From contig JAJZZA010000036.1 of NCBI GenBank assembly GCA_021797825.1, positions 1 through 32,104 on the forward strand: DNA of 32,104 nucleotides. Reading direction: 5' to 3'. This document shows, in pieces, positions 79 to 25,286 of the stretch. The position numbers and the translations under genes were made by a program. Numbering within the stretch: position 1 is the first letter of the stretch; each line of letters starts with the position of its first letter. A model generated the notes under the pieces. That model was not told where the DNA came from. It saw only the letters and a program-made list of their open reading frames with translations, and did no database searches. This DNA comes from Bacillota bacterium. Lineage in GTDB: Bacteria > Bacillota > Sulfobacillia > Sulfobacillales > Sulfobacillaceae.

Positions 79-97
79 GTGGTCAGAAGTGGTCAGA
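79..97. repeat. 9-bp tandem direct repeat at the sulfotransferase stop codon
   Basis: GTGGTCAGA occurs at 79-87 and 89-97, a 10-base period. The stop codon of the minus-strand sulfotransferase (83-85) lies in the left copy. Removing one 10-base unit would shift the frame and leave it open to the window edge, about 28 more codons. I do not recognise that extension as family sequence, so whether this is a slippage mutation is open. Confidence 0.6.
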
Positions 98-595
98 TTT
101 GGATAAGTCCATCAGAACGGCCCGCAGCGTATAGTACAACCATAGGCGCGTGCCGTCGGCAATCGGCATTCCGTCCCGTTCGCGCAGGGAATCGGCTACC
201 GCCAGCGGATTGCGGACGCTAATCAGGTAGTCCGTGGGGGGCAGGAACCGCCGCCAAAACGGCATGGTAATCGTGGTCCGGGGATCCTTAACGCCCACAC
301 CGGCTGCGATGCGTACCGTGCCAGCATTCGTTGCACTTGCGGGCTCAAGGCGGGGATCGTGTGCGCAGCCGGGCTTAAGTTCCCAGGGAGTGTGCCAGGT
401 CAAGCCAAAGAAATGCAGCAAGGTATCGGTAACCATCGTGACCCGTTTGTTTTCCGAATAGCCACGTGCGTTGAAACGGTTTACCATCTGGCGATCGTCA
501 TCGCCCACGTACACCCCCATATTGTTGAGCATATTGGCCAGCAATGAGGTGCCACTACGATGCATGCCCAAGACGGCAAACACGTTGGCAGCCAT
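83..595 (-). CDS. PAPS-dependent sulfotransferase family protein, short at the C-terminus
   Basis: Predicted to move a sulfuryl group from PAPS to an acceptor, probably a glycan or lipid. The 170-residue protein has the 5'-phosphosulfate loop near the N-terminus (residues 10-17, GMHRSGTS) and a 3'-phosphate-binding-like segment at 127-137 (VRNPLAVADSL, with R128 and S136). It starts at ATG 595, seven bases after the flippase stop, with GAGAGGGG about 10 bases upstream. It is the last gene of the cysC-sat-flippase operon, so its co-substrate is made by its neighbours. Oddity: relatives usually run to 200-300 residues, and here the stop lies inside a tandem repeat (79-97, two copies of GTGGTCAGA with a 10-base period). 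The C-terminus may therefore be frameshifted or truncated. Family call is good; acceptor and activity are unknown. Confidence 0.75.
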   Translation of the reverse strand: MAANVFAVLGMHRSGTSLLANMLNNMGVYVGDDDRQMVNRFNARGYSENKRVTMVTDTLLHFFGLTWHTPWELKPGCAHDPRLEPASATNAGTVRIAAGVGVKDPRTTITMPFWRRFLPPTDYLISVRNPLAVADSLRERDGMPIADGTRLWLYYTLRAVLMDLSKSDHF

Positions 596-602
596 TCTTA
601 AC

Positions 603-1973
603 CTACCCCTCTCTCGCCAACACCCGGTTGGTGGCGCGGCGTGAAATATAGACGAGTTGGGCGGCCATCAGCGCGGTGCGCACCCAAGCCGCCAAACCGG
701 TCCCGAGCGCGAGCCCGGCTGCGCCCATAGGGCGAATCAGGACAAGGTCCAACGCAATATTTACCGCAATGGTTATTGTACTATTCCACAATACAATTCG
801 CGTAGCCCGATTGGCAAAGAGGATTTTGGACAGGAAAAATGTCCAGCCGAAGGCCGGCAGTCCCACCGCCCAGTACGACAAATCGCGGGCGGTGAGGGCG
901 GTGGAGGACTGGCCAAACACGCCATGCTGGTAGACCAGAGATAAGATGGGCACGCGAAATGCGGCCAGGGCCAGGGCGGTGGGGACCAATAGGGCGGTGG
1001 AATAGACCAAACCCAGGCGAACCAGACGGAAATACGCGCGCCGGTCGCGGCCGTTGTGGGTTTCGGCCAGGCGGGTGAAGAGCGGGGTAACCAGGGGGTT
1101 TAATAAGAGGGTTACCGGCAACTGAGAGACCACAAAAGCGTAGTTGAGCGCGGCAACATTGCCGGTAGCCAGTCCCGACGCCAGCACCCGGTCGACGATG
1201 AGGCCGATGGTGCCGACCGAGTTGGCGTAGAAAAAAGGCCAAGACAGCCTCAAGGTTTCCCGCATCCACGGGTGGCGGAGATGCCAGCGGAAGACCAGGC
1301 GGATGTGTTGGCGGCCCAGTGTTGACCACAAGTAGACGGTTTGGCCAAAAACCGCCAGGGTAAAGCCAATGGCCACGCCGGTGATCCCAAGCCAAAGGCC
1401 TAGACTGACAATGGTGCCGATGCGAACCACGTTCATAATCAAGGGTGCGGCCGTGGTCGGCGCATACACCCGGCGGGATTGCAAGACGCCGGTGATGAGA
1501 CCGGACACGGCCCACAACAGCACGGTGGGCAGCATCCATCGGGTCATGGCGACGGTGAGGCCAAATTTTTGGCCGTGGTAGCTGGGAGCGATAACGTGCG
1601 TAATGGGCCCGGCCAGCACTTCGCCCACCAGCACCAGCGCCAAGGAGGCCAAGGTGACGGCGGTAAAGAGTTCATTTAAATAGCGGGCGAGGTTCCGCCG
1701 GTCGCGGGGATCGGCCGGGGTGCGTCCCGACAGAATGGGAATCACCACGTTGCTCAAAGTGGAATTCAAAGTGCTGAAAAATAAGTTGGGCAGGACACTG
1801 GCCATAAGCCAGGTGTCTGTCGCCAAGGTGGTGCCGAATATGGCGGCCATGGCCATTTCCCGACTGAATCCGAGCACTTTGGACAAGGCGGTGCCGGCCA
1901 GGATGATGAGAGCGGCGGCCCGGGTGCCGACGGCCCGGTGCATGCGGTTGGAAAGCGCGCCGGGTGAGGCCAT
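603..1973 (-). CDS. murJ: MurJ/MviN-type polyprenyl-linked oligosaccharide flippase
   Basis: A polytopic membrane protein of 456 residues, matching the usual length and pattern (about 14 hydrophobic segments) of the MVF family in the MOP flippase superfamily. The N-terminal LSKVLGFSREMAMAAIFG (30-47), followed by a segment ending in TDTWLMASVLPNLFF, is typical of MurJ. Members flip lipid II or similar lipid-linked saccharides to the outer membrane face. The ATG at 1973 lies three bases after the sat stop, so translation is probably coupled; no strong Shine-Dalgarno is seen. Placed between PAPS synthesis genes and a sulfotransferase rather than in a division cluster, it may carry a dedicated, possibly sulfated, lipid-linked glycan instead of lipid II. 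That substrate is inference. The symbol marks the family, not proven orthology. Confidence 0.85.
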   Translation of the reverse strand: MASPGALSNRMHRAVGTRAAALIILAGTALSKVLGFSREMAMAAIFGTTLATDTWLMASVLPNLFFSTLNSTLSNVVIPILSGRTPADPRDRRNLARYLNELFTAVTLASLALVLVGEVLAGPITHVIAPSYHGQKFGLTVAMTRWMLPTVLLWAVSGLITGVLQSRRVYAPTTAAPLIMNVVRIGTIVSLGLWLGITGVAIGFTLAVFGQTVYLWSTLGRQHIRLVFRWHLRHPWMRETLRLSWPFFYANSVGTIGLIVDRVLASGLATGNVAALNYAFVVSQLPVTLLLNPLVTPLFTRLAETHNGRDRRAYFRLVRLGLVYSTALLVPTALALAAFRVPILSLVYQHGVFGQSSTALTARDLSYWAVGLPAFGWTFFLSKILFANRATRIVLWNSTITIAVNIALDLVLIRPMGAAGLALGTGLAAWVRTALMAAQLVYISRRATNRVLAREG

Positions 1974-1976
1974 CGG

Positions 1977-3182
1977 CTATGTGTCCCGTTCCGGCGGACG
2001 GGGAGGGGGGGTGCCATTGCTCTGCTGGTAATAGCGCTGAAGTACCTCGACCACCTCCGGGCGGCTGAACTCCTTGGGCAACGGTTGATTGGCCTGCAGC
2101 ATGCTCCGAACCTTGGTTCCGGAAAGATGGACCCGGTCCTGAACGGTATGCGGACAGGTCTTGGTTGTCGCCATTCCGTAGCACTGCCGGCAATAGAAGG
2201 CGTGTTCGAAAAAGAGCGGCGTGATGCCCAATGCCGCCTGGTCGAACTCGCGGAAGATGCGTTGCGCGTCATAGGTGCCATAGAACGATCCGACGCCGGC
2301 GTGATCGCGCCCCACGACAAAATGCGTGCAGCCAAAATTCTTGCGCACCAGCGCGTGAAAGATGGCTTCGCGCGGACCGGCGTAGCGCATGGCCGCGGTA
2401 TAGACCGCAAACAACACCCGGTTGTTGGGATAATAGTGGCGCAAGATGGCATGGTAACTTTCTAGCCGAACCGCGGCGGGGATATCGTCGGATTTGGTGG
2501 GGCCCACCAGCGGGTGCAAAAGGAGTCCGTCGACCACCTCCAGGGCACACTTTTGAATGTATTCGTGGGCCCGGTGGATAGGATTGCGGGTTTGAAAGCC
2601 GGCGACCGCGCTCCAGCCGTATTCGGCAATCAACGAGCGGGTCTGCGCGGGGGTCAGCATATACGGGGCGTAGAGATCCGGGGAAGGCCGGCGATAGACC
2701 GTCAGCGGGCCGCCGAGATAGACCGGCCCGGTGGACAGCAACCGGTCGACCCCGGGATGGGCACGGTCGGTGGTGCGAAAAACCCGTTCAGCCTCAAGTC
2801 CACGGTCGGGTCGGTACTTTTCCGTTACCGTCAATGCGGCATGAATGTTACCCGCCGCATCCGCCAAATGGACCGTGCGATCGAGGGAGATGCGGTCGGC
2901 TTGCTCTTCGCTGACCGCCAGGGTAACGGGTATCGTCCAGGCCAGGCCCTGCGTCAGGTGCATGGTATCACGCACCGCGACGTAATCGTCGTGACCCATA
3001 AATCCCGTCAGGGGAGAAAAGGCGCCGATTCCGATTTGATAAATGTCCGACAACACAACCTCATCAACCGTGAGCACTGGGCGATCAGGAAAGTGCTGAG
3101 GGCTATGGTCGGTGCGACGGTCTATCAGGGTTCCGCCATGGGGCAAGATGGGCATCAAGCTCGGGCATCCTTTCGTGGTCAA
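1977..3182 (-). CDS. sat: Sulfate adenylyltransferase (ATP sulfurylase)
   Basis: Makes adenosine 5'-phosphosulfate (APS) and pyrophosphate from ATP and sulfate in the cytoplasm. At 401 residues it fits the monofunctional bacterial/archaeal Sat type. Visible motifs are QTRNPIHRAHEY (197-208), GRDHAGVG (291-298) and a cysteine set at 331, 334 and 343 that may bind metal, as in the Bacillus and archaeal forms. The ATG at 3182 overlaps the cysC stop by four bases (ATGA), suggesting translational coupling. A second in-frame ATG at 3155 (residue 10) has AAAGGA about 12 bases upstream and is an alternative start. It feeds APS to CysC, the preceding gene. No PAPS reductase is in this window, so a purely assimilatory role is not shown by context. 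Confidence 0.93.
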   Translation of the reverse strand: MTTKGCPSLMPILPHGGTLIDRRTDHSPQHFPDRPVLTVDEVVLSDIYQIGIGAFSPLTGFMGHDDYVAVRDTMHLTQGLAWTIPVTLAVSEEQADRISLDRTVHLADAAGNIHAALTVTEKYRPDRGLEAERVFRTTDRAHPGVDRLLSTGPVYLGGPLTVYRRPSPDLYAPYMLTPAQTRSLIAEYGWSAVAGFQTRNPIHRAHEYIQKCALEVVDGLLLHPLVGPTKSDDIPAAVRLESYHAILRHYYPNNRVLFAVYTAAMRYAGPREAIFHALVRKNFGCTHFVVGRDHAGVGSFYGTYDAQRIFREFDQAALGITPLFFEHAFYCRQCYGMATTKTCPHTVQDRVHLSGTKVRSMLQANQPLPKEFSRPEVVEVLQRYYQQSNGTPPPRPPERDT

Positions 3183-3808
3183 ATGCGGGTCACGGCGTCA
3201 CGATCCGAGTTGGGCACCAAGCCCCGCCGCGATAGATCAAGCAGAACTTGGCGGACATCGGATTCCACCGACTGGCGATCGCTTTGAACCCGAATGTCGG
3301 GATTCGCGGGCCGTTCATAGGGAGAACTGATGCCGGTAAATTCGGGGATTTTTCCGATGCGCGCTTGGTGATAAAGACCTTTAACGTCGCGCGCCTCGCA
3401 AACGTCCAAAGGACAGTCGACAAAAATCTCCACGAACTCGTCGGGAGCAAACAGAGCCCGGGCGCGCTGCCGTTCTTCGTGAAAAGGCGAGATCAAAGCG
3501 ACCAGGACCACAACCCCGGCGTCGACCAGAAGTTTCGCGGCGTGTGCGACCCGGCGCACGTTTTCGCGTCGGTCCGCCGGCGAAAAGCCCAGATCCTGGG
3601 TGAGGCCGGTGCGGAGGTTGTCGCCGTCCAGCAAAAACGTGCGCATCCCGCGGGCGTACAGTTCGGCCTCCAGAGCATTGGCCAGGGTGGATTTGCCGGC
3701 TCCGGATAGTCCGGTCAACCAAAGCGCATAACTGCGGTGCCCATTAAGCATTTGGCGGTGGTGCTTGGTGACAGAGAGTGCCTGGCCGGTGTTGAGATGT
3801 TTAGGCAT
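3179..3808 (-). CDS. cysC: Adenylylsulfate (APS) kinase
   Basis: Phosphorylates APS to 3'-phosphoadenosine-5'-phosphosulfate (PAPS), the donor for sulfotransferases and for sulfate reduction. The 209-residue protein has the P-loop GLSGAGKST (33-41), the DGDNLRTGL segment (61-69), the ISPF segment around 106-109, and the KGLYHQAR...EFTGISSPYE region (143-165), all typical of CysC. I chose the ATG at 3808 because GGGAGGCGG lies four bases upstream. The frame is open further upstream to 3868, but that extension has no family similarity. First gene of the operon; its stop overlaps the sat start. A small inverted repeat lies upstream at 3872-3888. Function is secure. Confidence 0.93.
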   Translation of the reverse strand: MPKHLNTGQALSVTKHHRQMLNGHRSYALWLTGLSGAGKSTLANALEAELYARGMRTFLLDGDNLRTGLTQDLGFSPADRRENVRRVAHAAKLLVDAGVVVLVALISPFHEERQRARALFAPDEFVEIFVDCPLDVCEARDVKGLYHQARIGKIPEFTGISSPYERPANPDIRVQSDRQSVESDVRQVLLDLSRRGLVPNSDRDAVTRI

Positions 3809-4309
3809 AACCGCCTCCCGAAAATCATGCGAAATTTGCCGTGCTTGCCTGCCAGTTGGCCACCACAAACGGCCAGACTCGATCTGGCAGGGATTGCAGT
3901 CACCACCAAGCGGCGGTAATCCGTCCGGTGTCCGGTGATTGCCTGACCCCGGTTGTCGCGGCCGAGCTTCTAGCCATGCGGTCGCGCACCCGCGCGCGCC
4001 CAGCGGGGGGCCGCAGACTATCGGCGTGGGTGGTCATTGGCTAGATAATAACATGAACTGACGGCCCATTTTGTCGGGATAGCCACCGAAAAGAGCGGTT
4101 TGAAGCCATGGCCGACGAATTTAAGCGAATGCACAGGAAGAGTTGGCGGTGTCCGGGGCCGTTGCTGAGAGGTTGGGCAGTGGCGCGTCCAAACCGTGGC
4201 AGCCATGAGTTAGCGCGCCCGGTTTTGCCCGGCCGCGTGCAACCCGGTCAAGGCCCGCCGGCAGCCAGATGAAAGGGCAGGCAACCGGGTCGCTGGCAAT
4301 CGGGCAGCG
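3809..4309. other. Intergenic region between desaturase and cysC operon (501 bp)
   Basis: No convincing gene. Short frames here look like noise. It should hold the terminator of the desaturase gene and the promoter of the cysC operon, both minus strand, but I found no hairpin with a T-run and no clear -35/-10 pair. The only ordered element is the inverted repeat at 3872-3888. Confidence 0.6.
3872..3888. promoter_or_regulatory. Inverted repeat upstream of cysC (possible operator)
   Basis: GCCAGA-CTCGA-TCTGGC is a perfect 6-5-6 inverted repeat, 64 bases upstream of the cysC start. It could be a regulator site or part of a leader hairpin. No regulator gene is adjacent and no promoter match was found beside it, so the assignment is weak. 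Confidence 0.3.
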
Positions 4310-14791: not shown

Positions 14792-15183
14792 GAAATACCT
14801 CCTTCCGAAGGGGTCCCCGCCACAAGGGCATGGGGGTATTATCGGGACGCCCTTCCATTGTAACGCCTTGGCAACGAAATGCCATGCCAGGATGCAAAAA
14901 TGCTCCGGCCGGCGGGCGACCATGGGGGACAAGGCGTTACCGCGGGACCGCGGGTCATGCCAACGCGACCCGTAAGATGCAGTTGCCCGCTGATTGTCCG
15001 GGCTGCCCGACCCGGCTGATTGCCAACAGTCGACCGGTTTGTTAGGATGAGGGCGACATGTTTAAGAGTTCTCCGGCGATGGAAGTTCAGCGGGGTTGGT
15101 GACTGGAGGAGATCCCCTTCTCTGCCGGAGGGTGGCGTATTCAATATGGCGCGATGCTAATCCAATCGCAAAGGACAGGGAAC
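14792..15183. other. Divergent intergenic region, reductase/metY fusion (392 bp)
   Basis: No gene seen. It contains the promoter candidate for the sulfhydrylase fusion (15020-15048) and presumably that of the reductase, for which no clear match was found. A short direct repeat of CGGCTGATTG/CCGCTGATTG type lies near 14985-15025. No SAM-I riboswitch or complete T-box consensus was recognised in the leader. Confidence 0.5.
15020..15048 (+). promoter_or_regulatory. Candidate sigma-A promoter of the metY fusion
   Basis: TTGCCA (15020-15025, five of six), an exact 17-base spacer and TAGGAT (15043-15048, four of six). Transcription would begin near 15055, leaving a leader of about 130 bases before the ATG at 15184. 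The GGAGGAGA...TTCTCT pairing in the leader (about 15107-15122) may form a weak hairpin. Confidence 0.4.
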
Positions 15184-16962
15184 ATGGAACAGAACACTCC
15201 CCTGCGGTCGTATCACCTGGACACGATCGCGCTCCATGGCGGGACCGCACCCGATCCGGCCACTGGGGCACGAATGGTTCCGATTTACCAAACCACCTCG
15301 TTTGTCTTTCGCAACGCTCAACACGCCGCCGATCTGTTCAATTTGGATGAGGCCGGCAACATTTATACCCGGATTGGCAATCCCACGACGGACGCCCTGG
15401 AAAAACGGGTCGCCCTCATGGAAGAGGGGGTGGCGGCGGTGGCGTTTGCCAGTGGCCAGGCCGCCATCACCGCCACGGTTACCAACCTCTGCCGGGCGGG
15501 CGACGAACTGGTGGCCTCGTCGGCCTTGTATGGCGGCACGGTGACCCTGCTCTCCTCGACCCTGGCGGATATGGGCATTGTGGTGCGCTTTGCCGAAACC
15601 TTGGAGGACGCCGGGAGGCTGATTAACGACCGGACGCGGGCGGTACTGGTCGAGACCATCGGCAATCCCAAGCTTGATGTGGCGGACATCGCCGCGTGGG
15701 CGCGCCTGGCCCACGCTGGAGGTGTGCCCCTGATCGTGGACAACACCTTTGCCACCCCGTACTTGTGCCGCCCGCTCTCGATGGGAGCGGACATTGTCAT
15801 CCACTCCTTGACCAAGTGGATGGGGGGGCACGGAGCGGCGATGGGGGGTGTGGTGGTTGATGGCGGCCACTTTAATTACCATCGTCCCCAGTACCCCCAA
15901 TTTTCGGAGCCAGACAGCTCGTATCATGGCATGGTGTATGCCAAAGAGTTTGGCGGTCTGGCGTTTTCCACGCGCTTGCGCGTGAAACTGCTGCGGGATA
16001 CCGGGGCGGCCTTGTCCCCGTTTAATGCTTTTCTTATTCTGTTGGGGATCGAGACACTGGGGATCCGCATGGAGCGGATGGGGGCGTCCGCCCAGCTGCT
16101 GGCGGAAAAGCTGGCCGCGCATCCGGATGTGGTCTGGGTTAACTATCCCGGCCTGCGCACGCATCCGACGCATGAACTGGCGACGCGTGTCCTTTCCGGC
16201 CAGAACTTTGGAGCGATGCTCAGTTTCGGCATTCGCGGGGGGAAAGCGGCGGGAATCCGGCTGATCAATGCGTTGGGATTATGGTCTCACGTGGCCAATG
16301 TCGGTGATGCCCGCTCTTTGGTTATCCATCCCGCGTCGACCACCCATCAGCAGCTCAACGAAGGTCAGTTGCAAGCGGCCGGAGTCAGCGCCGACTTGAT
16401 CCGGCTTTCGGTGGGGTTGGAGCACCCGCAAGATTTGTGGGATGACTTGGCGCAGGCGATTGACCGGTCGCAACGGCGCGTCCCGGGGCGGCGGGTATTA
16501 AACGACGAGTCGGTCATCCAAGATATTTGTGTGACGTCCCAAAAGGCAGACGGGCGACCGTTGGTGTTAGCCGTGGTGGGATTATCTCCCCACGCCAGCC
16601 GGCCAAGTTATCGCACCGCGCGCAAGCTGCAGCGCATGGGCTATCGGATTGTGCCGGTCAACCCCGCCTATCAGGGGGATATTTTGGGTGAAAAGGCATA
16701 TGCCAGTCTAAGCGAAATTCCCTTCCCGGTCGATGTGGTGCAGATTTTCCGCGCCTCCGACGCGGCTTTGGCCGCGGTGCAGGAGGCATTGCCGTTGGAT
16801 GTGCCGGTGGTTTGGCTGCAGGAAGGGGTGATAAACCCCGAGGCCGCCGAACTGGCGCATGCGCATGGCAAGGCGGTGGTGATGAACCGGTGTCTTTTCA
16901 AGGAAGTGCAACGGCTTAGAGGGTCGATTGTGACCTACCCCGTCTCCGTAGCGGAACAATAG
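15184..16962 (+). CDS. metY: O-acetylhomoserine sulfhydrylase fused to a CoA-binding domain
   Basis: A 592-residue fusion. Residues 1-430 are a Cys/Met metabolism PLP enzyme of the O-acetylhomoserine aminocarboxypropyltransferase type, which makes homocysteine from O-acetylhomoserine and sulfide. Lys211 in HSLTKWMGGHG is the PLP lysine; YTRIGNPTTDALEKRVA (61-77) and SGQAAITAT (90-98) are family motifs. Residues about 460-580 are a CoA-binding Rossmann domain (CoA_binding_2, YccU/YneT-like): VVGLSPHASRPSYRTAR, then RIVPVNP, GEKAYASLSEIP, VVWLQEG and VVMNRC. The linker is about 440-458. I prefer ATG 15184 (AAAGGACAGGG upstream, family-like N-terminus) to the in-frame ATG 15154. The CoA domain could sense acyl-CoA/CoA status and adjust methionine synthesis; that is inference. 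Confidence 0.92.
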   Translation: MEQNTPLRSYHLDTIALHGGTAPDPATGARMVPIYQTTSFVFRNAQHAADLFNLDEAGNIYTRIGNPTTDALEKRVALMEEGVAAVAFASGQAAITATVTNLCRAGDELVASSALYGGTVTLLSSTLADMGIVVRFAETLEDAGRLINDRTRAVLVETIGNPKLDVADIAAWARLAHAGGVPLIVDNTFATPYLCRPLSMGADIVIHSLTKWMGGHGAAMGGVVVDGGHFNYHRPQYPQFSEPDSSYHGMVYAKEFGGLAFSTRLRVKLLRDTGAALSPFNAFLILLGIETLGIRMERMGASAQLLAEKLAAHPDVVWVNYPGLRTHPTHELATRVLSGQNFGAMLSFGIRGGKAAGIRLINALGLWSHVANVGDARSLVIHPASTTHQQLNEGQLQAAGVSADLIRLSVGLEHPQDLWDDLAQAIDRSQRRVPGRRVLNDESVIQDICVTSQKADGRPLVLAVVGLSPHASRPSYRTARKLQRMGYRIVPVNPAYQGDILGEKAYASLSEIPFPVDVVQIFRASDAALAAVQEALPLDVPVVWLQEGVINPEAAELAHAHGKAVVMNRCLFKEVQRLRGSIVTYPVSVAEQ

Positions 16963-17629: not shown

Positions 17630-19468
17630 GTGAGGGTTTCCGTTCACCCAAGGCATCCGCGTCTTGCGCTGTTGATTGTTATGTTGGCTTTTGGGGCCTT
17701 TCAACTATTCGTGTCACTGCACAAATACTATACCCTGCAAGCGAGCACCATGGACCTTGGTTATTTCGAACAAGTGCTGTGGAAAATTTCACATGGGGAT
17801 TGGTGGGCCTTTTCCTCGGTCTTTCAAACCCCTGCACTGGCGGCGGATGGGTGTCTTATGCTCTATCCCTTGGCGTATGGGTTTCGTTATCTGGGCGGTG
17901 CCGTTTTCTTATTTGTCATCCAAGGGCTGGCAACCCTCGTGTCGGCGTGGGGCATCTACCAAGCGGCTCTCTTACATAAGCTTTCAGCTTGGCAGGCTGC
18001 TGTGATTGCCATGACATTTCTCTTCTATCCGGCCATTATCGGAGCCAGCCAATTCGATTTCCATCCGGATTTCATCGCGTTGGCTTTCGTGACTTGGGCC
18101 TACGTGGCGTATGCCGCCAGCCGATTCAGATGGTATTATCTTCTCCTCCTACTGGCGGTCATCTCCAAAAACGTCACCTTGATCTCAATCGGGGGTTGGG
18201 GTCTGGGATTGATCGTATGGAAACGGCGCTACCGAGACGGCTTGATCGCGCTTTGCGGCAGTGTTGTTCTCTTTGTAATCGAAATGGACTGGATTATTCC
18301 GTCGTATTTCCTCGGAGGGATCGAGCGCCTTACTTCAGTTCTCTATACCTACTTGGGTACGGGATACGTCGGCATTCTGTTCGGAATGGTTCGTCACTTT
18401 CCACTGTTGATGGGACATTTGCAGGGGACGGGCGGGTATGTCTTGTGGATTTTTGCTCCCGTGTTGGCGCTGTCCTTGTTGGGATCGGCAAGCGTGCCGG
18501 CCATGCTGGCGCTGTTTGGTCTCAATGCCATTTCGGCGTTTCCGGCCCAACACGTGGTGACCGACCAATATCAGGTGATTTTGTCCGGATGGGTCTTTCT
18601 CGCGCTGGTCGAAGCCGTAGGCAAATGGCGGGGTCGCAAAGACTTCCTGGTATATTCGGTGGCAATATCAACGGTGACACTCGAAAGCCTGTTGCTGGCT
18701 GTCGTCATTGTCCCTACACTGGCGCAATCCTCAGGGGCACTGCCCAGCGTAAAGGCGGCCGTGGCACGCATTCCCGCTGCCAGTGTGGTTTGGACACAAA
18801 ACCATTTAGGGGTGTGGGCCTATCGGTTTAAGGTTATGGGGGTTGCCCGCGAAACGGGAACGGGTCAAATGGTCGATGCGTTGCCCGTATTGTGGTCGGA
18901 GGCGGCTGCGCCCCGCACTAGGACCGTACTCCTTGGCATGCGTCCAACCACGCCCTATTTTGCCGATGTTCTGGGACAGGCCATTTCCGCTGGCTATCGC
19001 ATAGTGTTTCACAGCGGAATGACGTTTCTGGTCATTGGAACCCGGCATTTTGACCCGATCAGACCGTCGTCTATCGGAATGGGCTGGCAACCATCCTCGC
19101 GTAACTGGATGTTGCCGGCGTGGACGCAGGCCACCCAGGTTGGGGTGGTGGACTGGCGTACCCACACTGTCGTGGCTCCCGCGCACCGTCCGGGTTGGGT
19201 GCTGCCGAACATTCCCATTCAACTTGGCCCCGGCGACTACCTGGTGAGTGTGCAACTGACCACGGCGGTGAACGGCAAACCGGCGGCCAGGTTAGGGACA
19301 TTCCACATTCAAAGCGTCCTGACCAGCTTAGAAGTGCCAATTTTGGCCGGCGCGACGGTGGAACAGGTCCGGTTGTCGCTGCCAAACGCGGAAATGTTAC
19401 GTCTGTCACTGTCTTCGACCGGCGTAGAAATGTTTCATGTGCGGGCGTTTCAGGTGCAAAGCAACTGA
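17630..19468 (+). CDS. DUF2079 multi-spanning membrane protein, copy 1 (GTG start)
   Basis: An integral membrane protein of 612 residues. The N-terminal about 380 residues have roughly ten hydrophobic segments and the DUF2079 (PF09852) hallmarks: an acidic MDLGYFEQVLWKISHGDWW loop after helix 1, FDFHPDFIAL in the middle and SKNVTLISI. These loops resemble the acidic catalytic loops of GT-C glycosyltransferases. The C-terminal about 200 residues are mostly hydrophilic and probably outside the membrane. I chose GTG 17630 (AAAGGGAG eight bases upstream); the frame also opens at TTG 17600. The next DUF2079 gene is a tandem paralogue sharing NHLGVW and LGG(A/P)(V/L)FL. Function unproven; transfer of sugar from a polyprenyl-phosphate donor is the working idea. 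Confidence 0.82.
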   Translation: MRVSVHPRHPRLALLIVMLAFGAFQLFVSLHKYYTLQASTMDLGYFEQVLWKISHGDWWAFSSVFQTPALAADGCLMLYPLAYGFRYLGGAVFLFVIQGLATLVSAWGIYQAALLHKLSAWQAAVIAMTFLFYPAIIGASQFDFHPDFIALAFVTWAYVAYAASRFRWYYLLLLLAVISKNVTLISIGGWGLGLIVWKRRYRDGLIALCGSVVLFVIEMDWIIPSYFLGGIERLTSVLYTYLGTGYVGILFGMVRHFPLLMGHLQGTGGYVLWIFAPVLALSLLGSASVPAMLALFGLNAISAFPAQHVVTDQYQVILSGWVFLALVEAVGKWRGRKDFLVYSVAISTVTLESLLLAVVIVPTLAQSSGALPSVKAAVARIPAASVVWTQNHLGVWAYRFKVMGVARETGTGQMVDALPVLWSEAAAPRTRTVLLGMRPTTPYFADVLGQAISAGYRIVFHSGMTFLVIGTRHFDPIRPSSIGMGWQPSSRNWMLPAWTQATQVGVVDWRTHTVVAPAHRPGWVLPNIPIQLGPGDYLVSVQLTTAVNGKPAARLGTFHIQSVLTSLEVPILAGATVEQVRLSLPNAEMLRLSLSSTGVEMFHVRAFQVQSN

Positions 19469-19841
19469 AGGGACGAGTGGCATTGAACACTGGATAAGGT
19501 GTTTCGCCGATGGCTAACGAAAGGAGACTAGGCGGGAATGGGGCGTCCGCTGAAAAATTCCGATTGTCGTCTACACCTTGGTTAAGGTAGGGCTTAATCT
19601 CCAAGTGACGAGCCATCATCGGGAAAAAAACATTGTGGTCACAGTGTACTCCGTTGATCAATGTCCGCATGGGCTAGAACCCGCATTGGCTGGTTTGGCG
19701 GCGCCGGAAGTGAATGACGGGTAGCTCGGAAGGTGACAATGCCAGGCGAAAATGTGACCTGGGCACGTTCTCAAAATAATGTTGTATACTTGGGGCAAGT
19801 TGCCATCTACAATCCTGCAGCGGTAGCTAGGAGGATAGATT
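19469..19841. other. Intergenic region between the two DUF2079 genes (373 bp)
   Basis: No gene supported. A TATACT hexamer at 19785-19790, about 50 bases before the second DUF2079 start, is a good -10 match, but no matching -35 lies 16-18 bases upstream. A weak stem AACAC...GTGTT follows the first gene near 19484. The region marks the step into the more AT-rich part of the cluster. Confidence 0.45.
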
Positions 19842-21725
19842 TTGACCTCGAAGAATGACATGAGGCGGTTAAAGTCCCCCTTTGCCAGGTTCCGGGTCAT
19901 TGCTTTTTCTGGGTTCGACTTGCCTTTTTTTCTCGTGTCCATTCTCTGGGCGATGGGGTGGACGGGACTGGAAATCATGCGCTACTCCCGCGGATTCGCC
20001 ACCGTTTTTGATCTTGGGAGCACTGCACAAAGCTTGTATCTGATTTCCCATGGACATTGGCTTGCTTACAATACATTTTTAGGAATGCCGACTTTGCTTG
20101 ATATTGACGGATATGTTCTGTACATTCTGGCTTGGCCGTTTCGGTTTTTGGGCGGCCCGCTGTTTTTGTATGCGTTGCAGTCCCTTGCGCTGGTGATATT
20201 TGCTCGGGCGGCCTATGGTTACATCTTCTATTGTTCACGAACGCGTTGGATGGCCTGGGCCTTCGGTCTTCTTGCGCTAATTTCTCCCGCTCTGATTGGT
20301 GGTTTGATGTTTGATTTCCATGTGGACTTCGTCGCGTTACTTGGCCTGTCTTTAGCATTGATGGCTTCATCACGTGGCAATAAATGGCTGTTTTATTCCG
20401 GGATCGCCTTAGCTTTGCTGTCCAAGAATGTTGTGGCACTTCCCGTCGGGGTGTGGGCTGCAATAGAGCTCGTTGATAGGCACTATTTTTCTCGCAAGGT
20501 CTGGGCAAGTGTTCTTTTGATGGCCACGGGAATGTTTGTATTCGATGAGTTGATACTGCCCCATATTTTTAGTTCGAGCGGGCCGTCTCATCTCGGCCTG
20601 TTTAGCCAGTATGGGTCATCGGCTTCCGCAATTTTGCGGTCGTTGTTCACCCATCCTGCCATTATCGCTCATGCGGTAGTGGGCCACTCGTTCTATTTGG
20701 TTAAAATGGCTGGACCATGGGGGTTTTTGCCTTTGGTTTCGGGTCTTTATCTGTTGCCGTTTATGACCTTGGTGGTGCTTAACGATCTGGCTAAAGACCC
20801 CGCGCTGCGCAGCTTATCCACGCAATATTCAGTAGTTGTCATGTTTTTTGCCTTGCTCGCTACCGGCCACTCTATGACCGAACGGTCTCGCCGTCCTTTG
20901 CTATGGGCGACCTCCGCCTTGGTCGGCACCTTGAGTGCCATCTTCTTTCTGAAAGGGATCTGGACTGGCCAGGTCAAGCCGCAGATTGGTCCTAATCCAT
21001 CAATCGCAAAAGTGCGGCAATTGGCCCGAGTTGTCAATGATCAACCTAACGCCGCCGTGTGGACCACCAATCATCTGGGGGTGTGGGTGTATGCCCATCG
21101 ATTGATAATAGCCGATCCTTTCAAGAGTATTCAAGTTTTGTGGAAACTACGCCAGAAGTATGCCCCGGAGTCTCCGGTTCTCTTGTTTATGCCCCGGGGC
21201 GATTACAATCTCGATGTCAATGCGACGGTTTGGCAAGCTCTGACTCACCAGTACAAGGTCCTGCGGTGCAACAACTCGGCAGTAGTGCTATCTGGTTATG
21301 ACAGGTTTCCGGCCTATCCGCAGTTTGCATATGCCTCGGCAACCGCTGAAAATGCGTTTACACCCGTATGGCCTGAATATTTTCCGGCGCTGCTGTCATC
21401 CACCGTTGGCCATGTTAACTCTGCAGGATGGCTAACCGGTGACCGCGCTGGGGTTTTGTCAACTGGTGTTCCGACTGCTGTACCACCAGGGACCTATCAA
21501 TTACAATTTGTGTTCTCCAACGGCGCATCCCAACACGAAAGCATTGGTGTCGTGCGCCTTCTGACCGCTCAAGGTGAGCACATATTGGTTTCGGGTGAAA
21601 TTTTAAGTGCCCACGATATGACGTTAACCTGGACCAATCCCAAGAACCAATGGGTCTTCCCCGAGGTGGCTCTTACCGGGCGTAGCCCACTCAGTTATTT
21701 TGGCGTTATCATGCGCAAGGAATGA
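19842..21725 (+). CDS. DUF2079 multi-spanning membrane protein, copy 2 (TTG start)
   Basis: An integral membrane protein of 627 residues, tandem paralogue of the preceding DUF2079 gene. Shared features: FDLGSTAQSLYLISHGHW after helix 1, FRFLGGPLFLYALQSLAL, FDFHVDFVALLGLSLAL, SKNVVALPVGVW, and AVWTTNHLGVWVYAHR in the C-terminal region. About ten membrane segments are followed by an outside-facing domain of about 240 residues. The TTG at 19842 is the start because AGGAGG lies about eight bases upstream; the first in-frame ATG (19860) has no ribosome binding site. Its stop overlaps or abuts the GT2 gene, so the two are co-transcribed. Base composition is clearly more AT-rich than the flanks (24 of 60 G/C at 20041-20100). 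A GT-C-like glycosyltransferase role is inferred. Confidence 0.82.
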   Translation: MTSKNDMRRLKSPFARFRVIAFSGFDLPFFLVSILWAMGWTGLEIMRYSRGFATVFDLGSTAQSLYLISHGHWLAYNTFLGMPTLLDIDGYVLYILAWPFRFLGGPLFLYALQSLALVIFARAAYGYIFYCSRTRWMAWAFGLLALISPALIGGLMFDFHVDFVALLGLSLALMASSRGNKWLFYSGIALALLSKNVVALPVGVWAAIELVDRHYFSRKVWASVLLMATGMFVFDELILPHIFSSSGPSHLGLFSQYGSSASAILRSLFTHPAIIAHAVVGHSFYLVKMAGPWGFLPLVSGLYLLPFMTLVVLNDLAKDPALRSLSTQYSVVVMFFALLATGHSMTERSRRPLLWATSALVGTLSAIFFLKGIWTGQVKPQIGPNPSIAKVRQLARVVNDQPNAAVWTTNHLGVWVYAHRLIIADPFKSIQVLWKLRQKYAPESPVLLFMPRGDYNLDVNATVWQALTHQYKVLRCNNSAVVLSGYDRFPAYPQFAYASATAENAFTPVWPEYFPALLSSTVGHVNSAGWLTGDRAGVLSTGVPTAVPPGTYQLQFVFSNGASQHESIGVVRLLTAQGEHILVSGEILSAHDMTLTWTNPKNQWVFPEVALTGRSPLSYFGVIMRKE

Positions 21726-21733
21726 GGAGTCCG

Positions 21734-22687
21734 ATGAGAATTTCGGTGGTCGTGCCGGTCTACAATGAAGAAACGGGTTTGCGGCAATTCTTTTGCACAT
21801 TGCATGATGTGTTGAGGACTTTGGGTAGCTCGTGGGAAGTTTTGTTTGTCGATGATGGAAGTGCAGACGACTCCTGGGTGGTAATCCAACAATTGGCATC
21901 TGAGCACGCCGAAGTCAAGGGTATCCGACTCTCCCGAAATTTTGGGCATCAGATGGCATTGACCGCTGGGTTGGAACATGTGAGCGCGGATGCCGTGATC
22001 ACAATGGATGCCGATCTGCAACACCCTCCAGAACTGATTCCAGAACTGGTGGCGCGATGGCAACAGGGATTCGAGGTTGTCAATACTGTGAGAACCGATG
22101 CTGCCGAGATGCGCCAATTTAAGCGGCGCACTTCAGCACTTTTTTACCGACTGATCAACAAAGTATCCGAAGTTCCGATCCCCGCCGGGGCCGCGGACTT
22201 TCGGCTGCTGAGTCGCCAGGCGAACCAAGCCTTGCTGGCTATGCCGGAACGCCACCGATTTCTGCGAGGTATGGTTAGTTGGATCGGGTTTTCTCAAACT
22301 TTTATCCCGTATACTGCTCGTCCGCGCCAACATGGCGAATCCAAATATACTCTACGGAAAATGATGAACCTGGGAGCAGATGGACTGACTTCATTTTCCG
22401 TTGCGCCGCTGCGTCTCGCACTCTTGCTGGGACTAATTAGCATAGTTTTAGCCTTTCTGTATGCGGTTTATGTTCTTTGGGTCAAAATCTTCACTCACAA
22501 TTCTGAACCCGGGTGGACATCGATTATAGGGGTTAGCATGTTTTTTGGCGGCGTTCAGCTATTCACGCTCGGAATTCTTGGCGAATATCTTGGGCAGCTG
22601 TTTGGAGAAATCAAGCGACGCCCGTTATATGTCATCGCGCAGACCGCTGGCTCCGTGGAGCCATCCGCTCGAAAGGAGATCATATGA
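21734..22687 (+). CDS. GT2 polyprenyl-phosphate glycosyltransferase (GtrB/DPM1-like)
   Basis: Predicted to transfer a sugar from a nucleotide donor to undecaprenyl phosphate on the inner membrane face. The 317-residue protein has a GT-A catalytic domain (1-230) with VVVPVYNEE (5-13), DDGSADDS (40-47) and the metal-binding DAD in MDADLQHPPE (91-100), then two C-terminal transmembrane helices (about 230-255 and 270-295), the GtrB/DPM1-plus-anchor layout. I prefer ATG 21734 (GGAG four to five bases upstream, protein starts MRISVVVP); ATG 21722, overlapping the previous stop, is the alternative. The SMR-like gene starts within its last codons (overlap ATGA). Sugar identity is unknown. Confidence 0.93.
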   Translation: MRISVVVPVYNEETGLRQFFCTLHDVLRTLGSSWEVLFVDDGSADDSWVVIQQLASEHAEVKGIRLSRNFGHQMALTAGLEHVSADAVITMDADLQHPPELIPELVARWQQGFEVVNTVRTDAAEMRQFKRRTSALFYRLINKVSEVPIPAGAADFRLLSRQANQALLAMPERHRFLRGMVSWIGFSQTFIPYTARPRQHGESKYTLRKMMNLGADGLTSFSVAPLRLALLLGLISIVLAFLYAVYVLWVKIFTHNSEPGWTSIIGVSMFFGGVQLFTLGILGEYLGQLFGEIKRRPLYVIAQTAGSVEPSARKEII

Positions 22688-23046
22688 ATGTTAGTAGCTG
22701 GGTGCTATTCGTCGTCTACGCGCTGATGTCGACTGCCGCCCTTCTTCTCATGAAATCCGGATTGGCGAGTCCGTCGTTTCACCTTCAGACTCGGCCTAAT
22801 TTTTCTCTGACCCTCAATTATGCCCTGGTAAGCGGGGTGGCTTTATATGTAGCCAGTTTTTTGACGTGGCTCAGTATTATTCGCACGGCGTCGGTGGTAA
22901 TCGCCTATCCGTTGAGCATCGGCCTGATTCAGCTTTTTTTGCTTGGGGCGTCTTATCTGCTTATGCACCAGCGTATATCCGTCTACACCATTATTGGGGC
23001 TGCCTTTGTATTATGCGGAATCGCCTTACTCTCGATAGCATCATGA
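22684..23046 (+). CDS. Small four-helix SMR/EamA-like membrane protein (possible lipid-sugar flippase)
   Basis: A 120-residue hydrophobic protein with four predicted transmembrane helices (about 5-22, 43-66, 70-92 and 98-118), the size and pattern of the small multidrug resistance branch of the DMT superfamily. ArnE/ArnF, which flip undecaprenyl-phosphate-aminoarabinose, have the same build. The SVVIAYPLSIGLIQLFLLGASYLL region matches the helix 3 to loop pattern of such proteins. It overlaps the GT2 gene by four bases and has AAGGAG five bases before its ATG, so it is almost certainly in the same operon. The natural inference is a flippase for the polyprenyl-phosphate-sugar made by that GT2. 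Drug export is less likely in this setting. Confidence 0.8.
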   Translation: MNVSSWVLFVVYALMSTAALLLMKSGLASPSFHLQTRPNFSLTLNYALVSGVALYVASFLTWLSIIRTASVVIAYPLSIGLIQLFLLGASYLLMHQRISVYTIIGAAFVLCGIALLSIAS

Positions 23047-23648
23047 ACCGGCTGACCCGCATAGCTGGCGGAGGGGGAGGTGTGACGCGACGAGAATACC
23101 GGTTCGTCAGTTATCATGAATGGGTTGTTGGATACAAATTAGATTCTCGAACTGGGCAGGGAATAATGATGTTCCTTCATTGCATGGGACAAGGCGACGA
23201 GAGTGAAAAACGTCGCCCACCCAACTGCGGCCAAGGTGGCCGCGAGTTAGTACGGAGTGACACATGGGTTCTGCGGTGACGTCGCTGGCTTGGCTGGAGA
23301 ACCCTATCAGCTATGGGGTTCGCGATGGCGGAGCTTTTCCTGCAGCGAGATCGATGCCGAGGAAAGTCACATCCAAGTCACCGTTAATTGTATGGCCCAT
23401 CATGCGGCTTGCGGTAGCAAAATCTATCTTCCCCAGAGCGGCTGGTGAAAATTAATCAGGTATAATTTGGGTGCGTCGATGTCTTGAGACTGGGATCACC
23501 CGCGCGGGCCATTGCGAGCCAGTTTCCGGCATGTGCGGGGTGGCGGTCATCATGCGGTCAAGATGGCATGAATTGTACCACCCTCGTTTCGATCTAGCGA
23601 ATTGATGCATGGACGAATAAGGATAGAGGACACAAGGGGTTAGTTGTC
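23047..23648. other. Intergenic region with hairpins, upstream of third GT-C gene (602 bp)
   Basis: No gene with a recognisable product. Short frames near 23257-23455 lack family resemblance. Structure is denser than expected: two near-adjacent perfect hairpins (23193-23217 and 23227-23243) and a looser AACCC...GGGTT pairing near 23299-23320. A perfect TATAAT lies at 23461-23466, about 180 bases before the next start, but without a good -35. It could hold a decayed mobile element, a structured RNA or a long leader. Confidence 0.5.
23193..23243. other. Two near-adjacent perfect 7-bp hairpins
   Basis: GGCGACG (23193-23199), an 11-base A-rich loop and CGTCGCC (23211-23217) are followed nine bases later by GCGGCCA-AGG-TGGCCGC (23227-23243). 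No T-run follows. The pairings are exact; whether they act as RNA structure, as a terminator for the GT2/SMR operon or as remnants of a mobile element end is not resolved. Confidence 0.45.
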
Positions 23649-25286
23649 ATGGATAGAGTGCACCAAGAACGTGACCCGATTGACTTAAACCTGGCATTTA
23701 GTGGCCTATTCTTGATCTTTTGGGGACTGCGAGTCTGGCCGGCAGTGATGCTGAGCAGTGTGTTTAGTGTGATTTCACTGGTGCTTATCGGCTTTGGCTT
23801 GGGGTGTGTTGGCCTGGGATTAGTGGGCAAGACCCTAAAACATTATCGGGTTCCGGTTGTCGTACTGTTTAACCTTGGGTTCATGGTCTGGGCCGTCATT
23901 CACATCATGGCCGCGGCGGGCTATGGGACGGATGAAATCGCGTTTGATCAGTGGGCGGCGCAGCTGCTGATCCGGGGCGTAAATCCTTATACGGCCAACC
24001 TAACACCCGCGCTGTCGCACCTGGGGGTTCCGCACATTTATTTCACCTACACCTTAACCGGCCAGCTCGTGCACCAGTTATCCTATCCCGCGATGGCCAT
24101 CTATCCCTATCTGCCGTTGCTGTGGGGCGGAGTCGCCCGCGGGTCCGCCCTCTTTACCGATACGGTGTTTTGGATGATCAGCATCGCGTTGTTTTACGCC
24201 TTGTTGCCGAAAAAGTATCAGTGGCTGGCACTGTTGTGTGGATCCCTAAGCATCTATAACACCTATCTGTTGGGCGGGGTTACCGACGTGCTGTTTTTCC
24301 CCTTCCTGTTGGTGGCCGCCTACCGGTGGGACCGCTTTAATCAACTGCCGGGCTATTGGCGTTGGGGGCCGCCGGTAGCCTTTGGCTTGGCGGCGGCGGT
24401 CAAGCAAACCGTGTGGTTTGTCGCGCCGTTTCTTTTTTTGGCGCTGATTCTTGAACAGAATGACAACAAAAAAGGGCTGATGACGGCATGGCGCTATGCC
24501 CTGATTGCGCTGTTGACGTTTGCCGTAATTAATGCGCCGTTTATTATTGTCAATTTTGGCGCGTGGCTGCACGGCATTTTGCTGCCGTTAACCGAGCCAA
24601 CCCTCCCCGCAGGCCAAGGCTTCATCGATTTGGCATTGTTCACCCGGATTGGCGGGGGGGCGCTGTCGCTTTTTAACGATTTGGGGATTCTTTTTCTGGT
24701 CGCAGGATTGCTCTTCTTATACACCGACTATAGTCTGTTAAAACCCCTGATTTTTTTCATGCCGTCGCTCATTTTGTTTTGGAGCTCGCGATCATTCGGG
24801 TCGTACCTGATCGATTTGGTGCCGTTTGCCATATTGTCCGGGCTGACCATTACGCCGGCGCCCGGCTTTAGCCGCAATGTCGCCAGGTGGCGCAAACCGG
24901 GCGCCGTCAGTTTGGGAACGGTTTTCCTCGGGTTGGTTGCGGCGATCGTGCTGTCTCCGGCGCCGTTGACAATTTCCGTCGCAAAACTTCAGGCCGTCGG
25001 CCAATCGGGGCGGGTCGCGCGAATCACCCTCTCGGTCACGAACCATACGCGCCGCGTGCTTCGCCCCCATTTTGCTTTGACCACGACGGGACAGCCAACG
25101 GGCTTTTGGGCGGCGCCCGACACCTCTCTAAAACCTTATGCGACCGCCACAATTGCCCTCCAGGCCCCATATCCTTCGGCGATGCCCGCGCTCCGCAGCA
25201 ACTTTATTGTCGACGCCTTTACCGCCAATCCGGACACGCTCAGCACCAGTGGGATCTGCCACGCCTGGACCATTCCCCGGTCTTGA
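23649..25286 (+). CDS. GT-C-like multi-spanning membrane protein (candidate glycosyltransferase)
   Basis: A 545-residue membrane protein with about 11-12 hydrophobic segments over residues 14-440 and a C-terminal outside domain of about 100 residues that looks beta-rich (ARITLSVTNHTRRVLRP). After helix 3 it has GYGTDEIAFDQWAAQLLIRGVNPYTANL, an acidic loop plus the RG.NPY motif seen in GT87/DUF2029-type and other GT-C mannosyl- or arabinosyltransferases. HIYFTYT and VKQTVW are further loop motifs. The start is ATG 23649 with AAGGGG nine bases upstream. It is separated from the SMR-like gene by about 600 bases and is convergent with the RND operon. It probably uses a polyprenyl-phosphate-sugar donor; the acceptor is unknown. 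It differs from the two DUF2079 proteins in sequence. Confidence 0.72.
   Translation: MDRVHQERDPIDLNLAFSGLFLIFWGLRVWPAVMLSSVFSVISLVLIGFGLGCVGLGLVGKTLKHYRVPVVVLFNLGFMVWAVIHIMAAAGYGTDEIAFDQWAAQLLIRGVNPYTANLTPALSHLGVPHIYFTYTLTGQLVHQLSYPAMAIYPYLPLLWGGVARGSALFTDTVFWMISIALFYALLPKKYQWLALLCGSLSIYNTYLLGGVTDVLFFPFLLVAAYRWDRFNQLPGYWRWGPPVAFGLAAAVKQTVWFVAPFLFLALILEQNDNKKGLMTAWRYALIALLTFAVINAPFIIVNFGAWLHGILLPLTEPTLPAGQGFIDLALFTRIGGGALSLFNDLGILFLVAGLLFLYTDYSLLKPLIFFMPSLILFWSSRSFGSYLIDLVPFAILSGLTITPAPGFSRNVARWRKPGAVSLGTVFLGLVAAIVLSPAPLTISVAKLQAVGQSGRVARITLSVTNHTRRVLRPHFALTTTGQPTGFWAAPDTSLKPYATATIALQAPYPSAMPALRSNFIVDAFTANPDTLSTSGICHAWTIPRS

Follow-up and report, generated by a model that had tools for sequence, protein, structure and literature searches.

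We analysed one entire contig of 32,104 bases (hereafter the window) from a 3.59 Mb draft genome, the relatives of which are Sulfobacillus and Bacillota metagenome bins. Five open reading frames, P0001 to P0005, lie between positions 17630 and 25286, all on the forward strand (Table 1), and three of them probably specify a three-component polyprenyl-phosphate-sugar decoration system, in which a protein of the DUF2079 family (P0002) would act as the outer transferase beside a GT2 synthase (P0003) and an SMR-like flippase (P0004). An earlier note, made from the sequence alone, had placed five genes at these positions, where all the frames are indeed open, and had read them as a single pathway. 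Of the five genes, P0002-GT2-SMR (19842-23046) constitute the conserved unit. The four-base overlap of the GT2 and SMR genes described in the note is present, and a further one joins the DUF2079 and GT2 genes, both with the sequence ATGA. P0001 and P0005 lie 373 and 602 bases, respectively, away from these three genes and are not their usual partners in other genomes, so that the five genes do not form one conserved unit.

Both P0001 and P0002 match the DUF2079 profile (PF09852) well above its cut-off of 28.2 bits (123.4 bits, E 1.7e-35, and 106.7 bits, E 2e-30, respectively). The AlphaFold (AF2) model of P0001, built with 20 relatives, is of high confidence (predicted local distance difference test score (pLDDT) 88, predicted template modelling score (pTM) 0.88). 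Its best matches among solved structures in VIA-align were GT-C enzymes, namely Pmt4 (Z 19.7), ArnT (5f15; Z 19.4 across 413 residues), human and yeast oligosaccharyltransferases and PglB (Z 16-19, with PglB at ~17) and ALG12 (Z 16.4), with EmbB, AftA and AftD scoring lower, and Foldseek ranked ArnT first (E 7.6e-6). In this confident model P0001 adopts a GT-C membrane fold, with an outer-loop domain inserted after the first transmembrane segment (TM1), which bears out the likeness of DUF2079 to GT-C enzymes suspected earlier.

In GT-C enzymes, the first and second outer loops each carry an acidic residue. In an alignment of 64 DUF2079 proteins from related genomes, the position of Asp42 in the first outer loop of P0001 is aspartate in 63 and that of Asp143 in 62, whereas His145 and Pro134 are each present in all 64. 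These two aspartates may be equivalent to the catalytic residues of ArnT. D57 and D158 of P0002 align with D42 and D143 of P0001, and family membership together with this alignment indicates that P0002 probably shares the GT-C fold. The CBM-like domain at the C-terminus of the P0001 model (CBM, carbohydrate-binding module) would favour glycans or wall polymers as the class of acceptor, and suggests that P0001 itself acts on one. In a viral structure library, the top match to the P0001 model was Q684B0 (E 1e-7), a 580-residue protein presumably of a Sulfolobus virus, with most of the fold common to both; a tblastn search for DUF2079 in plasmids gave no match. Pfam presumably places DUF2079 in its GT-C clan.

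P0003 matches PF00535 (E 1.1e-31), and its nearest solved structures are Synechocystis sll0501 (5ekp; 1.2e-77 over residues 4-308) and ArnC (1.7e-52). With a DxD motif at D96/D98 within MDADLQ (residues 95-100) and two C-terminal membrane segments, it has the features of a GtrB/ArnC-type enzyme, in agreement with the GtrB/DPM1 plan first ascribed to it; the genome holds 12 GT2 genes in all. P0004 could be aligned with E. coli ArnE, ArnF and EmrE. It carries Ser16 where EmrE has the drug-coupling Glu14 in TM1, a position that is also serine in ArnE, and hence lacks the TM1 glutamate of drug-efflux SMR proteins. The SMR-like assignment proposed for it holds. A search with the ArnE model found P0004 as the sole ArnE-like match in the genome. 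Because the scores fall below the equivalog cut-offs, P0003 and P0004 are relatives, not members, of ArnC (NF007986; 196 bits against 529), PgfS (NF047588, the NCBIfam model that P0003 matches best; 294 bits against 500) and ArnE (NF011625; E 2.4e-6, 27.7 bits against 92); the match of P0004 to ArnF (E 6.4e-6) was likewise below cut-off.

The Arn pathway follows an established logic of making, flipping and transferring a lipid-linked sugar. By the same logic, P0003 would take a single sugar from a nucleotide-sugar and attach it to polyprenyl phosphate on the inner side of the membrane, P0004 would move the lipid-linked sugar across the membrane, and P0002 would pass the sugar to an extracytoplasmic acceptor, with the aspartate of the first outer loop as the base. 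P0001, a homologous GT-C enzyme, may be supplied from the same pool of donor, and P0005 is a possible additional GT-C enzyme. We infer the donor chemistry, the flipping, the transfer and the acceptor, and also that P0001 and P0005 use the flippase. A broader proposition, which we regard as evenly balanced between true and false, is that DUF2079 constitutes an unclassified GT-C family, served by an ArnE-like SMR protein and in some clades equipped with a built-in carbohydrate-binding domain, that P0005 founds a second such family, and that two or three outer transferases share one flipped donor.

The linkage of these genes recurs in related genomes (labelled G000 and so on, G000 being that of the window; loci are labelled L062 and so on), in which a DUF2079 tree resolves four deep clades. 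In clade B, to which P0002 belongs, the order DUF2079-GT2-SMR was found in six genomes: intact in the window (G000), G001 and G011; cut by the contig end after the GT2 gene in G033; with a DUF2079 gene disrupted by missing segments and frame changes beside intact GT2 and SMR genes in G023 (Sulfobacillus thermotolerans Kr1; L164:7119-9211); and with all three genes decayed in G031 (L165). Clade C genes occur in a cassette of the order P0005-like-SMR-GT2-DUF2079 (G006, G010, G022, G023, G025, G033 and probably G027) or, at other loci, as P0005-like-DUF2079-GT2-GT2 with SMR absent (G009, G012, G031). Genes of clade A (P0001 type) and of the P0006 type are mostly solitary, exceptions among the clade A genes being those of G010 and G025, close to a clade C cassette, and of G032, close to GT2-SMR. 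GT2 genes number 1.13 per 10 kb up to 1.5 kb from DUF2079 and 0.35 per 10 kb at distances of 6-11 kb, and the independent NCBIfam ArnE model places 11 of 32 SMR genes within 5 kb of DUF2079 versus 0.22 expected. We rely on this figure and not on that from another SMR profile, which is biased towards DUF2079 neighbours because these supplied part of its sequences. The linked genomes span several genera, and GT2, flippase and GT-C genes are both linked and conserved, as in a three-component system. The association of DUF2079 with GT2 and flippase genes anticipated by the earlier note therefore stands for clades B and C within Sulfobacillales; most DUF2079 genes being solitary, it belongs to these two clades and not to the whole family.

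Two further observations concern the relatives of P0001 and P0002. In four genomes, P0001 orthologues have a related gene in their vicinity (L062:11337-12473, which matches sortase, L066:8674-9813, L063:6819-7886 and L054:1558-1902). The third DUF2079 gene of the genome, P0006 (G000:C99:29349-30824; L004:7350-8825), encodes a protein without the C-terminal domain and stands alone among housekeeping genes.

P0005 had no match in Pfam or NCBIfam, a Pfam scan of nine of its relatives found no GT family, and searching PDB sequences with the family returned chance matches only. Profile comparison (hhalign, local mode) of the family with GT87 gave 87-93 percent (E 4e-6 to 4e-7; highest control 32 percent), and with moderate confidence P0005 would be a distant GT87 relative. 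A direct likeness between the DUF2079 and P0005 profiles, also considered, scored 12-24 percent, no better than the reversed control (32 percent), and offers no evidence of kinship. By alignment, P0005 is a short form without the last ~120 residues, the final domain, of its longer relatives. Genes of the family lie within 3 kb of DUF2079 in 12 of 14 cases, the usual partner being of clade C, another clade than that of P0002. Two further genes occur ahead of the P0005-like gene in clade C, with homologues of L062:2562-3458 at 8 loci and of L062:1635-2384 at 6; the product of the former has a weak beta-propeller match and that of the latter no match.

Several points weigh against a decoration system with DUF2079 as its outer transferase. 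Likeness of fold alone is no proof of enzyme activity, and P0001 was the only one of the proteins modelled at usable confidence; the AlphaFold model of P0005 from four sequences (pLDDT 42) is of too low confidence to use. Of the GT-C-like acidic first loops earlier attributed to three proteins, that of P0001 is upheld by both fold and conservation, and a GT-C fold for P0005 is not borne out by structure, its case being profile likeness to GT87. In G022 and G026, a P0002-type gene has no GT2 gene in the 528 and 315 bases available downstream, and most DUF2079 clades are solitary. The binomial P-value for the linkage of SMR genes (~2e-16) ignores shared ancestry, and several of the genomes are fragmentary. 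Finally, DUF2079 is rare elsewhere in the phylum (4 of 299 genomes), so that the linkage test is confined to the class.

Among the alternatives, the one that survives best, itself unlikely, is that DUF2079 is a GT-C oligosaccharyl or polymer transferase (STT3/PglB-, ligase- or polymerase-like) acting on polyprenyl-diphosphate-linked glycans, with the GT2-SMR pair providing a side-chain sugar to the same glycan. The Z scores of PglB, STT3 and AglB (16-19) are close to those of ArnT and Pmt4, and a MurJ-family flippase is encoded in the window; however, monosaccharide-phosphate lipids are the product of GtrB/ArnC-type enzymes, to which the linked GT2 belongs, and the recurrent partner is an SMR protein rather than Wzx or MurJ. 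We give slightly less credence to the idea that DUF2079 has the GT-C fold but is no transferase here, serving instead as a scaffold or acceptor-binding subunit, like PIG-U in the glycosylphosphatidylinositol transamidase. Non-catalytic GT-C-like subunits do exist, PIG-U chains 7w72_U and 8imx_U match P0001 with Z ~13, and Asp42 is missing from one of the 64 DUF2079 proteins. Yet Asp42, Asp143 and His145 are near-invariant across four deep clades, and in G001 and G011 the P0002-GT2-SMR units showed no alternative candidate for the outer transferase.

An operon comprising all five genes and serving, in addition, the sulfate-activation and MurJ genes near the start of the window, to yield a sulfated, decorated glycan, is improbable. 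The five genes are co-directional, and the sulfate group combines ATP sulfurylase and APS kinase with a weak Sulfotransfer_3 match; this group, however, lies on the opposite strand ~14 kb from the DUF2079 module, none of its four genes has a homologue in other DUF2079 loci (~80 loci compared), and clade B genes do not usually have P0001 and P0005 as partners. The connection to a sulfated-glycan operon suggested in the earlier note finds no support. Least probable of all is that the linkage is incidental, envelope-glycan genes tending to cluster and GT2-SMR serving other GT-C enzymes: 21 of the 32 SMR genes are not near DUF2079 and a PMT_2-like GT-C gene adjoins a GT2 gene in G051, but the strict order with four-base overlaps in the window, the recurrence with two DUF2079 clades, the 11 linked genes against 0.22 expected and the joint decay of DUF2079, GT2 and SMR in G031 all argue against it.

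Elsewhere in the window, the frame of an O-acetylhomoserine sulfhydrylase gene (15154-16962) stays open for ~160 residues beyond the point where the enzyme normally ends, as though a second domain were fused to it. Neither an Rfam scan of the window nor a PHROGs search gave a match. Promoter and terminator scans gave counts exceeding those of shuffled sequences, but the consensus matches were weak and were not used as evidence.

Table 1. Features of the window discussed in the text.
Feature	Positions	Strand	Description
P0001	17630..19468	+	Second DUF2079 protein, GT-C fold (model) and C-terminal CBM-like domain; neighbour of the module
Asp42 codon of P0001	17753..17755	+	Between TM1 and first outer-loop helix (model secondary structure); candidate catalytic base
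Asp143 codon of P0001	18056..18058	+	In FDFHPD motif, placed in second outer loop
C-terminal beta-sandwich of P0001, residues 489-612	19094..19465	+	CBM16/35/36-like; VIA-align Z 11.9-12.0 across 110-119 residues
P0002	19842..21725	+	Putative outer-face GT-C glycosyltransferase of the DUF2079 family, in clade B; central to the conserved module
P0003	21722..22687	+	GT2, predicted GtrB/ArnC/PgfS-type polyprenyl-phosphate-sugar synthase
P0004	22684..23046	+	SMR-like four-helix protein, putative polyprenyl-phosphate-sugar flippase, ArnE/ArnF-like
P0005	23649..25286	+	Membrane protein with GTDE outer-loop motif, putative distant GT87 relative
Operon-like sulfate group	83-3868	-	Sulfotransferase-like (170 aa, weak Sulfotransfer_3 match), MurJ, ATP sulfurylase, APS kinase
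MurJ-family flippase	603-1973	-	Part of the 83-3868 group

The confident GT-C model, the near-invariant candidate catalytic residues and the fixed link to a donor synthase and a flippase turn DUF2079, a family without assigned function, into a directly testable candidate glycosyltransferase family. The proposed system would extend three-component outer glycosylation to an acidophilic lineage of Bacillota, Sulfobacillus and its relatives, in which surface glycans may bear on mineral attachment. DUF2079 was absent from the literature searched, which contained no description of a DUF2079 outer enzyme paired with an SMR flippase. The novelty is tempered by a family already annotated in a similar sense, NCBIfam NF046093 (AZOBR_p60025 family cell surface glycopolymer formation protein), of which P0001 is not a member (E 2.8e-5 over 137 residues; 23.5 against a cut-off of 150).

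Among known systems, ArnC-ArnT-ArnEF, which adds 4-amino-4-deoxy-L-arabinose (Ara4N) to lipid A in E. coli, likewise combines an ArnC-type GT2, an SMR-type flippase and a GT-C transferase; the P0001 model matches ArnT over 413 residues, at an identity of ~12 percent between ArnT and the putative DUF2079 transferase. The Arn system differs in having an ArnE/ArnF pair where a single SMR gene is found here, whereas the module has no adjoining Ara4N synthesis genes, resides in a Bacillota host in which lipid A is not expected, and has a CBM-like domain in addition. The pgfS-pgfM1-pgfE-pgfM2 genes of Streptococcus mutans, a precedent for a protein acceptor (PMC5856776), place two membrane proteins beside one GT2, and PgfS resembles P0003 below the family cut-off; the module lacks an epimerase. 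In the Citrobacter GT136 three-component system, the CBM of the GT-C enzyme binds its acceptor glycan (PMC11127046). That enzyme has its CBM at the C-terminus and acts on the outer glycan after polymerisation, but is served by a phosphoribosyl-type donor synthase and a MATE flippase in place of the GtrB-type GT2 and SMR protein described here. For the glycosylation of teichoic acids by CsbB-GtcA-YfhO and Lmo2550-GtcA-YfhO, a three-component logic has been put forward on genetic evidence (PMC7389260); these Gram-positive systems also unite a GtrB-like GT2, a small membrane flippase and a multi-spanning outer transferase; here, an ArnE-like SMR protein stands in place of GtcA/GtrA and DUF2079 in place of YfhO. 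The type of pathway is already known, and the new element would be DUF2079 as the outer enzyme with an SMR flippase.

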